This document shows positions 24,566 to 53,538 of a stretch of 53,538 nt of DNA, piece by piece. The DNA comes from Bacteroidia bacterium (GTDB lineage Bacteria > Bacteroidota > Bacteroidia > AKYH767-A > 2013-40CM-41-45), in NCBI GenBank assembly GCA_020852075.1, contig JADZBN010000100.1, forward strand, positions 1 through 53,538, read 5' to 3'. Positions within the stretch are counted from its first letter, which is position 1. Every line of letters begins with the position of its first letter. The position numbers were made by a program, and so were the translations under genes. A model generated the notes under the pieces. That model saw only the letters and a list, made by a program, of their open reading frames with translations. It did no database searches and was not told the DNA's origin.

Positions 24566-24582
24566 ATACGGAAGGTCATAAA

Positions 24583-24608
24583 AAAACCCCGTCTGATGAC
24601 GGGGTTTT
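24583..24608. terminator. Bidirectional terminator between paaG and hup
   Basis: Perfect eleven-base arms AAAACCCCGTC (24583-24593) and GACGGGGTTTT (24598-24608) with a TGAT loop. The minus strand ends with a longer T-run, so it serves HU best but also the convergent paa operon. Confidence 0.9.
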
Positions 24609-24625
24609 CAATTTTCGCAGGTTGA

Positions 24626-29920: not shown

Positions 29921-29948
29921 AAAAAATCCCGGTTAACCGGGATTTTTT
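29921..29948. terminator. Bidirectional terminator gyrB / methyltransferase
   Basis: Perfect twelve-base arms AAAAAATCCCGG (29921-29932) and CCGGGATTTTTT (29937-29948) with a TTAA loop; T-runs occur on both strands. It separates gyrB from the convergent methyltransferase. Confidence 0.95.
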
Positions 29949-35300: not shown

Positions 35301-35635
35301 GATTGTTTGGCATCGCTCAGTTTATTATAAATAATAAACTGAATCCTGCCATCAAGTTTATAATCCAGGAGTTTTTCGATTTCATCGAGTTCCTGCTGTG
35401 CAGACCTGCCGGTAAATTCCGCGTGTTCAAATCCACCCAGATAATAATAGGTATCATAATTGGGGAATTTCATGAATGACCAGAACCGGTCTTCATACTG
35501 AACCCTGTTTTTACCAAATTTCATATCATACCCGTTATAAAACTGGGCAGAAGAAGCTGAAGGATACAGGCTAAGCAGGAAGATATTGAGGCAAATCAGG
35601 GGTACCTTTGCAATCAACCGGTTGAGGAGGCTCAT
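32336..35635 (-). CDS. Exported protein with TolB-like propeller and outer-membrane barrel
   Basis: A 1099-aa protein with a Sec signal peptide (ICLNIFLLSLYPSASSAQ, cut after SSA). Residues ~35-280 resemble a gluzincin/peptidase-MA-like domain but with no clear HExxH; residues ~320-570 contain WD40/TolB-like strands (TSPDGRYTAYVTND, PVTAWHPTGQLLAVI, DFSYSDDGQSIVLSA, GIVFSSNRVNDT). A Pro/Ser/Lys-rich linker (~residues 640-710) leads to a C-terminal surface-antigen-like barrel of about 380 residues ending KFYFSLGLDF. This propeller-plus-barrel layout is seen in Bacteroidota, but the function is not established. It heads a unit with the amidohydrolase. Confidence 0.75.
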   Translation of the reverse strand: MSLLNRLIAKVPLICLNIFLLSLYPSASSAQFYNGYDMKFGKNRVQYEDRFWSFMKFPNYDTYYYLGGFEHAEFTGRSAQQELDEIEKLLDYKLDGRIQFIIYNKLSDAKQSNVGLQSDELNNNTGGLTQSVGNKVILYFTGDHESMRKQIRAGIARVLIDQIMYGGDVKDRIQNSALLTLPDWYLYGLISYISKPWDTDIDNRMRDGVVSKKYRSFNHLHGLDAMYAGHSMWKYIVDTYSESSVSNLLYMTRINRNIESGFSYVLGVSLKELTSNWTEYVRNLYLNSDSGRDTLTNFGIVKKPKSFLVYDQLHTSPDGRYTAYVTNDIGKYKLKLYDSEKKKNRKILKGGYRSYTQTTDLSFPVTAWHPTGQLLAVIRERKGKMWLGTYTLATKKFEEGKLFNFEKVLDFSYSDDGQSIVLSAVQKGQSDIFVYNLRTRTYEQITKDFYDDFNPRFINNSSGIVFSSNRVNDTLNVEQGRILPRNSNLDIFYFDYIGKSNVLKRITSTSYADETEPMPYDSSHIAYLSDESGIRNRYLAQLDSVLSYVDTTVHYRMIVSNQPLTNYPRNIISQDVNFSRNRISQVFYYNGRYRMKVDRITRSDNYTGNLIPKTLFRNEEMRKDIHPPAGSPGPEQVIREGPPETPAVQSDSNAVDIDNYVFQSDFPESKKKNTGKEKSGPGSSFLPDRETKSPQSDTGFSTLPKQRNYETAFASDYFQGQLGNTLLNQSYQLFTGGGAIYYNPGLTGFFKLGISDLLDDYRITGGFRLAFNLDANEYFLSYENFKKRLDKSITFYRQALLLPQYGAKLHSHEIRFGASWPFSDVSSIRGSAAYRNDRLTVLATDYNSLTIPNDYLHWVNGRLEYVLDNTLNMGLNLYNGTRLKIFGEYYKQADRKNTGMVIIGADVRHYLKIHREIIWANRFATSTSFGKEKLIYFLGATDNWFSPKFNYNTTIDYSQNYYFQALATNMRGFDQNIRNGNTFALINSELRIPIFRYLFNRPIKSDFFNTFQVIGFGDIGSAWNGLDPYDSTSTLNTQTIFNQPFLITLTSQNEPIVGGFGFGLRARLLGYFLRTDWAWGVENRVVLPYKFYFSLGLDF

Positions 35636-48067: not shown

Positions 48068-48093
48068 AATCCTGTAAGGCCCCCGTCAAGTCT

Positions 48094-48120
48094 AAAGGCA
48101 ACCCACGGGTTGCCTTTTTT
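48094..48120 (+). terminator. Terminator of the first T9SS cargo gene
   Basis: AAAGGCAACC (48094-48103) and GGTTGCCTTT (48108-48117) with a CACG loop and a T-run. Strong plus-strand terminator, so the two cargo genes are separately transcribed. Confidence 0.9.
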
Positions 48121-50140: not shown

Positions 50141-50169
50141 AAAAAGCCCCGCTGATAGCGGGGCTTTTT
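50141..50169. terminator. Bidirectional terminator between the T9SS gene and mlaF
   Basis: Perfect twelve-base arms AAAAAGCCCCGC (50141-50152) and GCGGGGCTTTTT (50158-50169) with a TGATA loop; serves the converging genes on both strands. Confidence 0.93.
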
Positions 50170-51843: not shown

Positions 51844-51990
51844 ATGAAGTACCTGAGATCGTACCGCCTATTGTTACTTCTTGCAGGCCTGCTGCTGTTT
51901 TGCTGTGGTTCGTGTTCTATTTTTAAGAAAAAGTGCGATTGTCCTAAATTTGGCAAAATCCATCCCAGGGAGGAACGGAAAGCCTCCTGA
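51844..51990 (+). CDS. Small 48-aa lipoprotein
   Basis: ATG 51844 to TGA 51990. The N-terminus is a compact lipoprotein signal (KYLRSYRLLLLLAGLLLFCC, with Cys at residues 19, 20 and 23), followed by SIFKKKCDCPKFGKIHPREE, a short basic tail with a CDCP motif. The likely lipidated cysteine is in GSC (residue 23) or just before it. The short length hides it from length-filtered gene calling. It lies directly upstream of feoAB in the same direction, but no function or link with iron can be shown. Confidence 0.65.
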   Translation: MKYLRSYRLLLLLAGLLLFCCGSCSIFKKKCDCPKFGKIHPREERKAS

Positions 51991-52006
51991 CACTTGAGAA
52001 AAAATA

Positions 52007-52033
52007 AAAATATCCGCATTTTTCGAATATTTT
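52007..52033. repeat. Inverted repeat upstream of the feo -7 box
   Basis: AAAATATCCG (52007-52016) and CGAATATTTT (52024-52033) pair at nine of ten positions around a seven-base spacer. It covers the place of the -33 element; no T-run follows, so it is not a good terminator. Confidence 0.4.
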
Positions 52034-52036
52034 AAG

Positions 52037-52044
52037 TACCTTTG
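52037..52044 (+). promoter_or_regulatory. feoAB -7 box
   Basis: TACCTTTG, 28 bases before the feoA ATG. The -33 element is poor, as expected for an activated or repressed promoter. Confidence 0.6.
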
Positions 52045-52048
52045 ACCC

Positions 52049-52069
52049 TATTTAAAATCATTCTAAATA
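52049..52069. promoter_or_regulatory. Palindromic operator candidate of feoAB
   Basis: Half-sites TATTTAAAAT (52049-52058) and ATTCTAAATA (52060-52069) around C52059 are inverted copies with one mismatch in ten. The site starts four bases after the -7 box and covers the predicted transcription start, the place for a repressor. A Fur- or DtxR-type iron regulator is the likely factor. Confidence 0.6.
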
Positions 52070-52072
52070 AAA

Positions 52073-52324
52073 ATGGATAGATCCATCCGGCTTTTGTCTG
52101 ACCTTAAAAGAGGCCAGAAAGGAATGATTGATTCCTTTACGGATTACGAACTTTCCTTAAAATTACTGGAGATGGGTTGTATCCCCGGTGAACCGGTTGA
52201 AGTCATCCGCATTGCCCCGATGGGGGATCCGATTGCCATTACTGTTTCCGGTTACATATTGAGTCTTCGAAAAAGCGAAGCTGTATTTGTGAGAGTCCGG
52301 ATTACAGGGGCTGATACAGACTGA
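52073..52324 (+). CDS. feoA: Ferrous iron transport protein A
   Basis: An 83-aa SH3-like cytosolic protein that works with FeoB in Fe(II) uptake. Typical segments are LSDLKRGQKGMIDSF, LKLLEMGCIPGEPVEVIRIAPMGDPIAITVSG (in parts: KLLEMGCIPGEPVEVIR) and LSLRKSEAVFVRV. ATG 52073 directly follows the palindrome. feoB follows after 41 bases. Confidence 0.93.
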   Translation: MDRSIRLLSDLKRGQKGMIDSFTDYELSLKLLEMGCIPGEPVEVIRIAPMGDPIAITVSGYILSLRKSEAVFVRVRITGADTD

Positions 52325-52365: not shown

Positions 52366-53538
52366 TTGCCGGAAAAAATAAAGATCGCATTAATCGGCAA
52401 TCCCAACAGCGGAAAGTCCACTGTATTCAATGCCCTCACCGGACTGAACCAGAAGATTGCCAATTATCCCGGAGTGACCGTAGATAAACGGTCCGGTACT
52501 ACAACTCTCAGGCGGGAAAATGGACAAACATTTACTGCCGAAATTATTGACCTCCCCGGGACTTATTCGCTGTATCCCAAATCCCCGGAGGAGCAGGTGC
52601 CCTTTCAACTTTTGTGTGATCCTCACAATAGCATACACCCTGATTTAACCCTTGTGGTTGCCGACGGAACAAACCTGAAGCGGAACCTGTTCCTCTGTTC
52701 GCAGATCATTGATCTGAAAATTCCGGTAATCCTTGTTGTAAACATGATGGATATCGTCAGGTTTAAAGGGATTAAAATAGATTTTGACAAAATTTCCTCG
52801 GCCCTTGGCATTCCGGTTATTCCCATGAACGGAAGAAAAATGGAAGGATTAAAGGAATTGAAGTCCTGTATGGGAAAAAACCTTACCGTCCCGATGAAAG
52901 ACTTTCTGGATGTCAGGGAATTTTCTCCGGGAGTAGTTGACGGCATCCGTGAACTGGTAAAAGTCAACAGCAGCTATAATGCCTTTCTGGTGGCCAATAA
53001 CCTTGACCTGATTTCCAATTTCGAAATTCACGAATGGAAGAAAGATAAAATCAGGGCAATATGTTATGATGCGGGGTTCAATCCTCCTCAAATGCAGGCG
53101 AAGGAAACCCTGGAGCGGTATAAAGTGATTTCACGGATTATCCAGGATGCGGTAATGAATCCGGGCGCTCCCGTTCATACATCCTATACCTACAAGATTG
53201 ACTCCCTCCTAACACATAGAATATGGGGCTATGTCATTTTCCTGATCATCTTGTTCCTGGTCTTCCAGTCCATTTTTGCCTGGGCTACGTATCCCATGGA
53301 TCTGATTGATTCTGGATTCAGTTGGCTGAATACCCGGGTACGGAATACATTACCTGCAGGAATTCTTAACGATCTGATGGTGGATGGCATCCTGGCCGGA
53401 TTGAACGGGATCGTGGTTTTCATCCCTCAGATTGCCGGGGTGGTCTTTTTTGTAAGTCTTCTTGAAGACACCGGCTATATGGCGCGGGTAAGTTTTATCA
53501 GGGATAAAATGATGCGAAAATTCGGGCTCAACGGCAAA
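52366..53538 (+). CDS. feoB: Ferrous iron transport protein B, 3'-truncated
   Basis: The first 391 residues of FeoB run open to the window end. The G domain has G1 GNPNSGKSTVFN (residues ~11-22), G2/switch I region ANYPGVTVDKRSG, G3 DLPGTYSLYP and G4-like NMMD; it is followed by the GDI helical domain and the first membrane helices (GYVIFLIILFLVFQSIF, GIVVFIPQIAGVVFFVSLLEDTGYMAR). TTG 52366 is the only usable start in frame after the feoA stop, giving PEKIKIALIGNPN. Inner-membrane Fe(II) channel/transporter. Confidence 0.93.
   Translation, partial: MPEKIKIALIGNPNSGKSTVFNALTGLNQKIANYPGVTVDKRSGTTTLRRENGQTFTAEIIDLPGTYSLYPKSPEEQVPFQLLCDPHNSIHPDLTLVVADGTNLKRNLFLCSQIIDLKIPVILVVNMMDIVRFKGIKIDFDKISSALGIPVIPMNGRKMEGLKELKSCMGKNLTVPMKDFLDVREFSPGVVDGIRELVKVNSSYNAFLVANNLDLISNFEIHEWKKDKIRAICYDAGFNPPQMQAKETLERYKVISRIIQDAVMNPGAPVHTSYTYKIDSLLTHRIWGYVIFLIILFLVFQSIFAWATYPMDLIDSGFSWLNTRVRNTLPAGILNDLMVDGILAGLNGIVVFIPQIAGVVFFVSLLEDTGYMARVSFIRDKMMRKFGLNGK

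Follow-up and report, generated by a model that had tools for sequence, protein, structure and literature searches.

An almost symmetrical sequence lies immediately before feoA in the window (the whole stretch of 53,538 nucleotides that was analysed), which raises the question of whether it is an operator for an iron-responsive repressor and, if so, which protein would occupy it. The original prediction described ten-base half-sites around a central C with a single mismatch at 52049-52069, and both the coordinates and the letters proved exact. The half-sites TATTTAAAAT (52049-52058) and ATTCTAAATA (52060-52069) flank a C at 52059 to form a 21-base near-perfect palindrome, TATTTAAAAT-C-ATTCTAAATA, which reads TATTTAAAATCATTCTAAATA as a whole box and has 52055(A)/52063(C) as its sole mismatched pair. 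Inside it, positions 52052-52066 (TTAAAAT-C-ATTCTAA) form a 7-1-7 core with AT-rich arms and one mismatch, which is the dyad arrangement of a Fur box; the classical Fur box is the 7-1-7 sequence TGATAATnATTATCA. The features of the promoter region are as follows.

52037-52044, + strand: predicted -7 promoter element TACCTTTG (TAnnTTTG), placed from its sequence, the element position in PMC9723704 and the spacing in relatives
52049-52069, no strand assigned: predicted Fur-type operator (box) TATTTAAAATCATTCTAAATA, placed from symmetry, conservation, recurrence and the motif printed for Riemerella anatipestifer
52073-52324, + strand: feoA (FeoA domain, PF04023), an open reading frame with a domain match
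52366-53538, + strand: 5' part of feoB, listed with a TTG start codon and continuing past the end of the window

As had also been claimed, the palindrome follows the -7 element by four bases (ACCC separates it from TACCTTTG), which places it, like a Fur box, in the predicted promoter of an iron gene, and feoA starts at 52073, three bases past the palindrome. Because the TAnnTTTG element of F. psychrophilum is placed at -12 to -5 (PMC9723704), feoAB transcription is predicted to start at 52049, the first base of the palindrome. In that case the palindrome would extend from +1 to +21 of the transcript, which agrees with its earlier description as lying over the feoAB start site. Two other features of this region are a second imperfect dyad, AAAATATCCG-N7-CGAATATTTT, at 52007-52033 over the expected -33 region of feoA, and a small lipoprotein-like ORF before feoA (51844-51990, 48 aa, containing KKKCDCPKFGK), which has relatives (E < 0.01) in nine of the 11 feo loci of the family, itself included, as well as in L048/L049.

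Symmetry by itself is within chance for the window and would not carry an operator claim. Palindromes with 10-base arms, a one-base centre and at most one mismatch occur four times in the window, compared to 2.45 expected from 20 second-order Markov sequences of the window, while shuffling the 82 AT-rich bases at 51991-52072 yields one such palindrome in 1.4% of 5000 trials. The significance of the palindrome derives rather from its being conserved and recurrent. Perfect or near-perfect inverted repeats are also found elsewhere in the window, at 24582-24609, 29921-29948, 35316-35343, 48093-48118 and 50142-50168, and some of these, with arms rich in G+C and with runs of T, could be terminators.

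Conservation was examined in 41 feo loci, comprising 30 that were Bacteroidota by title (out of 58) plus the 11 of the family, and our script recognised feoA in 28 of them. A box with ≤4 mismatches was present just before feoA in 16 of these 28 loci, the window included, and in all 16 it ends 0 to 12 bases before the ATG with a shuffle p of ≤0.011 each; the other 12 have no box at this threshold. Of the 13 loci in which the script did not recognise feoA, five (L026, L027, L052, L053 and, in an unusual place, L080) also match within the 800 bases upstream at ≤4 mismatches. Three pairs of loci (L048/L049, L055/L056 and L057/L059) are nearly identical to each other. Box-bearing feo loci occur in Ohtaekwangia, Adhaeribacter, Saprospiraceae and Bernardetiaceae records. 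A lack of conservation upstream of feoAB in related genomes had been named as evidence against an operator. At ≤3 mismatches, the box is conserved in seven of the 11 family genomes (G000, G002, G006, G007, G008, G009 and G010) as well as outside of the family, but a good feo box is absent from the remaining four (G001, G003 with a best match of 5 mismatches, G004 and G005). The promoter arrangement is conserved as well, since, of 12 loci that were selected for having a box, 10 have a -7 element (TAnnTTTG or TAnnTTTA) whose first base is 11-16 bases ahead of the box, the two without it being L048 and L049. A different dyad, resembling TTGAAACTGAGTCTCAA, is found ~580-660 bases upstream of feoB in feo loci of Opitutae/Verrucomicrobia (L069, L070, L073-L078, L081, L082, L084, L085, L087 and L090).

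Another expectation of the original prediction was that copies of the palindrome should be found near other iron genes of the same genome, and this was borne out. The pattern TATTTARAWTNAWTYTAAATA with ≤2 mismatches occurs at five places in this genome, compared to 0 for the reversed control: before feoA, between sufA and sufB, before a porin gene, 280 bases before a multiheme cytochrome gene and on contig C120, where no iron link is evident. Across the 11 family genomes, 37 places were found, compared to 8 for the control, and the 37 were grouped by eye from their neighbourhoods. An iron, heme, Fe-S or related gene adjoins 22 of them (feoA at 6, sufB at 5, porin/Rieske at 4, a TonB receptor at 4 including one double site, multiheme cytochrome at 2 and ric/ScdA at 1). 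Recurring or iron-linked settings account for 25 places when three without an independent iron link are added, namely a double site at an outer-membrane barrel gene and a site at a LuxR-type response regulator gene. The other 12, the C120 copy among them, have no such neighbour, and about 8 such places are expected from the control. Domains were sought with Pfam in feoA and in 39 of the 63 listed neighbour genes and later in more, including the four other family sufB genes; the sufB boxes lie beside a sufA/erpA-type gene and a SufB domain was found in all five. The family porins with a box are related to one another, and an imelysin gene, which was specifically looked for, lies 3' of the porin in one operon only (L147). 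In this genome, a molybdopterin-type gene comes after the multiheme cytochrome gene, and scores below cut-off suggest the Qrc or alternative-complex-III type.

Extending the search to the class gave a strict motif (≤1 mismatch) in 125 of 295 genomes, with 0 for the control in the rows shown. By ORF call, 23 of the 26 class sites examined are intergenic. A neighbour domain of Fe-S_biosyn (5), TonB plug (3), HmuY (2), heme oxygenase (2) or HemA (1) was found at 13 of the 26 loci, although the suf and heme oxygenase loci are not independent, because a single family (f30) supplied all five suf (Fe-S_biosyn) loci and a single genus both heme oxygenase loci. Two further class loci have the same porin as this genome (L182 and L194) and one has a distant relative of it (L181), and the remaining loci have regulators or genes without a known iron role as neighbours. 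The base frequencies in the 26 sites indicate a free centre, the other positions being imposed by the search itself. With respect to promoters, TAnnTTTG was found within 70 bases at 15 of 27 other box sites. At six of these its first base is 12-21 bases ahead of the box, an arrangement shared with feoA, while at the other nine the element begins 15-47 bases downstream of the first base of the box, which is then upstream of the promoter core or overlaps it; in L198 and L201, the box ends ~25 bases before TAnnTTTG.

A lead on the protein that would read this box comes from one publication. In a search of open PMC papers, the core of the palindrome was found only in PMC5609570, which fits the earlier comment that less is known of the Bacteroidota site. 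There, the Fur box of R. anatipestifer was predicted with RegPredict as ATTTAGAATTATTCTAAAT, and purified R. anatipestifer Fur produced gel shifts on four promoters, among them that of sprT, which has a poor box in the published table (the abstract prints an E. coli-type box instead). The R. anatipestifer box and the box studied here are the same 19-base dyad, in the same phylum and <100 bases from the start codon. Their targets are also alike, as those of R. anatipestifer include TonB receptor and HmuY/HmuR-type genes and an imelysin gene is among its Fur-regulated genes (PMC5609570). The two systems differ in that feoAB and suf carry the box here, whereas the R. anatipestifer box table has no entry for feoAB, and loss of fur does not derepress it there. 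In the tabulated values, feoA and feoB of the R. anatipestifer wild type are up at low iron (1.52 and 1.33) and lower in the iron-replete fur mutant (-2.25 and -2.22) (PMC5609570).

The genome itself contains one Fur-family match (contig C141; L016:822-1310), which scores above the PF01475 cut-off and is encoded between genes of the RelA/SpoT and STAS types, with purA next to the STAS gene on its far side. Its best NCBIfam matches are Fur models, all below their curated cut-offs. Each of the 11 family genomes likewise has one Fur locus, including G001, G003, G004 and G005, which encode Fur yet lack a good feo box. The G004 locus reads through a run of Ns; co-loss of the box with a broken fur gene was rejected as an explanation for this genome, since the break is the run of Ns. 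In the class, a box is present in 5 of 21 Fur-less genomes and in 120 of 274 others, which is the expected direction but not significant (p 0.11; counts read by eye, one Fur-less genome having been found by elimination). Four of the five Fur-less genomes with a box are 65-78% complete, and the other, G039 of the class sample, is 99% complete and has no Fur match and one box. Nine genomes of genus g57 (one of them assigned by elimination) have a DtxR match, no Fur match and no box.

From these comparisons of sequence, we consider that the palindrome most likely serves as the operator of a repressor that responds to iron, and specifically of the genome's one Fur-family protein, with a probability of roughly 0.78. 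We infer Fur binding, repression by binding and iron as the signal. When iron is sufficient, metal-loaded Fur would sit on the box over the predicted start and block RNA polymerase, whereas iron scarcity would vacate the box and allow feoAB to be expressed; the same box would serve a set of iron-uptake, heme and Fe-S genes. The metal response of this Fur is nevertheless not assured, because of the NCBIfam scores below cut-off and a Gln at a Glu metal-ligand position, and the signal may vary within the phylum, as the P. gingivalis Fur orthologue senses hemin (PMC4222909). The original proposal of a good Fur or DtxR operator candidate is thus supported by conservation and by recurrence at iron genes, and Fur is favoured over DtxR because of the identity with the Riemerella Fur box, the presence of boxes without a DtxR match and a different spacing upstream of dtxR genes. 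The predicted operator is ordinary in kind, well supported and spread more widely than the one paper found. It would give a Bacteroidota lineage that has been little studied a concrete, testable iron operator, and the box printed for one species is indicated to be widespread among genomes of the class, where it accompanies feoAB, suf, heme and receptor genes.

A very different account would have the palindrome arise by chance in an AT-rich leader, or act as an RNA hairpin. Palindromes of this kind are indeed expected ~2.5 times per window, but the sequence and position of this one are conserved and the motif recurs. Moreover, no stable fold was obtained for the feo leader RNA (z -0.26), on which ground a leader hairpin was rejected, and at nine of the 15 other box sites that have a TAnnTTTG close by, the box comes before the element and lies outside the predicted transcript. 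A DNA operator is indicated by these last two observations together, and we regard the chance or hairpin account as largely refuted and very improbable. Somewhat more weight can be given to the idea that another iron- or redox-responsive regulator (of the Rrf2/IscR/RirA type or other) owns the box and Fur has a minor part. Suf and Fe-S genes are in the motif set, one Rrf2 protein is encoded in this genome, and across the class the box shows no significant association with Fur. Furthermore, genes with a box in R. anatipestifer still respond to iron when Fur is missing, as exemplified by hmuR (7.89 vs 8.44), and the suf genes of that species are iron-responsive in both strains (PMC5609570). Together with the failure of fur deletion to derepress R. 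anatipestifer feo, this makes another regulator possible. Against it, the Fur gel shifts were obtained on R. anatipestifer promoters assigned this box (PMC5609570), and Rrf2 was found in only two of the 11 family genomes, on which basis Rrf2/RirA/IscR was rejected as the binder. Overall, we give such a regulator an outside chance.

The remaining candidate is a DtxR/MntR-family protein (encoded on contig C151), which would bind the operator and repress feoAB with iron or manganese. A DtxR-family protein is encoded in this genome and in nine of the 11 family genomes, and the site found upstream of dtxR genes has the same outer letters as the feo box, TTAG...CTAA, in keeping with the general consensus of DtxR/MntR-type operators. 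The two differ, however, in their spacer, which is 4 bases at dtxR genes and 5 in the feo box. TTAGR-N4-YCTAA occurs exactly in 7 of 11 regions upstream of dtxR genes, compared to 0.012 expected from shuffles, within 160 bases upstream of dtxR/mntR (L165, L166, L168, L169, L171, L173 and L174), and these sites are probably the operators of the dtxR/mntR genes themselves. Inexact N4 sites are present with one mismatch in L172 and with three in L017, L167 and L170, this genome's own dtxR is among those without an N4 site, and an exact N5 site was found in none of the 11 regions. Conversely, N5 fits better than N4 in 19 of 20 feo regions and ties in one, these regions having been selected for a box and the best N5 match in L053, L059, L061 and L063 not being the box itself. 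The suf rows of this comparison are whole loci, and in L145 and L148 the best N5 match is again not the box. The window's own feo region does not fit TTAGR-N4-YCTAA, its best N4 match having 2 mismatches and its best N5 match 1. The own dtxR gene also lies directly before an Nramp (mntH-type) gene, and its best NCBIfam match is MntR, below cut-off. In addition, G007 and G008 have feo boxes and no DtxR match, and box presence in the class is independent of DtxR (18 of 51 genomes without vs 107 of 244 with, p 0.28; also read by eye, with 31 DtxR-less genomes found by elimination). DtxR as the binder is accordingly disfavoured by the spacing and by the box-bearing genomes without a DtxR match (18 in the class, some of them incomplete), and we judge it quite improbable.

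Returning to Fur as the preferred binder, its residues suggest how it might read a box unlike the classical one. In B. subtilis, the box is decided by a position occupied by Arg in Fur but by Asn in PerR (PMC8638851), and in MgFur, Arg57, which follows a conserved Tyr, contacts a guanine (PMC4506495). The corresponding residue is Asn66 in all ten complete family Fur proteins, whereas this column has Arg in the solved Fur chains 6d57, 4ets, 2w57 and 8j6w and Asn in the PerR chain 2fe3. A second position, Gln118 in all ten aligned family Fur proteins, is Glu108 in Fur chain 8j6w and Asp in PerR, so that the PerR Asp104 signature is absent from all ten. The box shares an odd-centred dyad, AT-rich arms, one free base and placement in iron-gene promoters with the classical Fur box, quoted as GATAATGATAATCATTATC (PMC5609570), but its half-site is TTAGAAT rather than TGATAAT. 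Asn in place of the base-reading Arg would explain the T instead of G at half-site position 2 (TTAGAAT).

The PerR box is TTATAATnATTATAA, and its half-site is one base different from that of the present box. Asn at the box-deciding residue of B. subtilis PerR (PMC8638851) is a further likeness, while the iron, heme and Fe-S neighbours seen here and the missing Asp104 signature set the two apart. Tentatively, and a little short of even odds, we suggest that Fur of this lineage reads a shifted code (Arg to an invariant Asn, T for G at half-site position 2 in TTAGAAT), and that Fur and MntR/DtxR share TTAGA...TCTAA and are separated by a spacer of five vs four. The residues alone do not predict the box, because G001 has the same Asn and Gln and its feo box is missing. 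Even so, the proposal ties a residue to a base in a prediction (Asn66 and TTAGAAT), and its spacing rule, a difference of one base, may keep two metal regulators apart.

Two further observations concern other regulators near the box. FNR-like sites (TGATnnAAATCA), as judged against the general FNR consensus, were seen 48-50 bases before the feo box in L019, L020, L024, L048 and L049, with shuffle p values of 0.008-0.12 each, and are centred ~41 bases before the predicted start, which is the place of a class II activator; before the window's own feo promoter there is none beyond chance (p 0.41). Lastly, in two genomes that belong to different families, a LuxR-type response regulator gene starts within 20 bases of a box (L146:2517-2537 and L202:1501-1521), and it is possible that this box-adjacent gene encodes an iron-controlled regulator.
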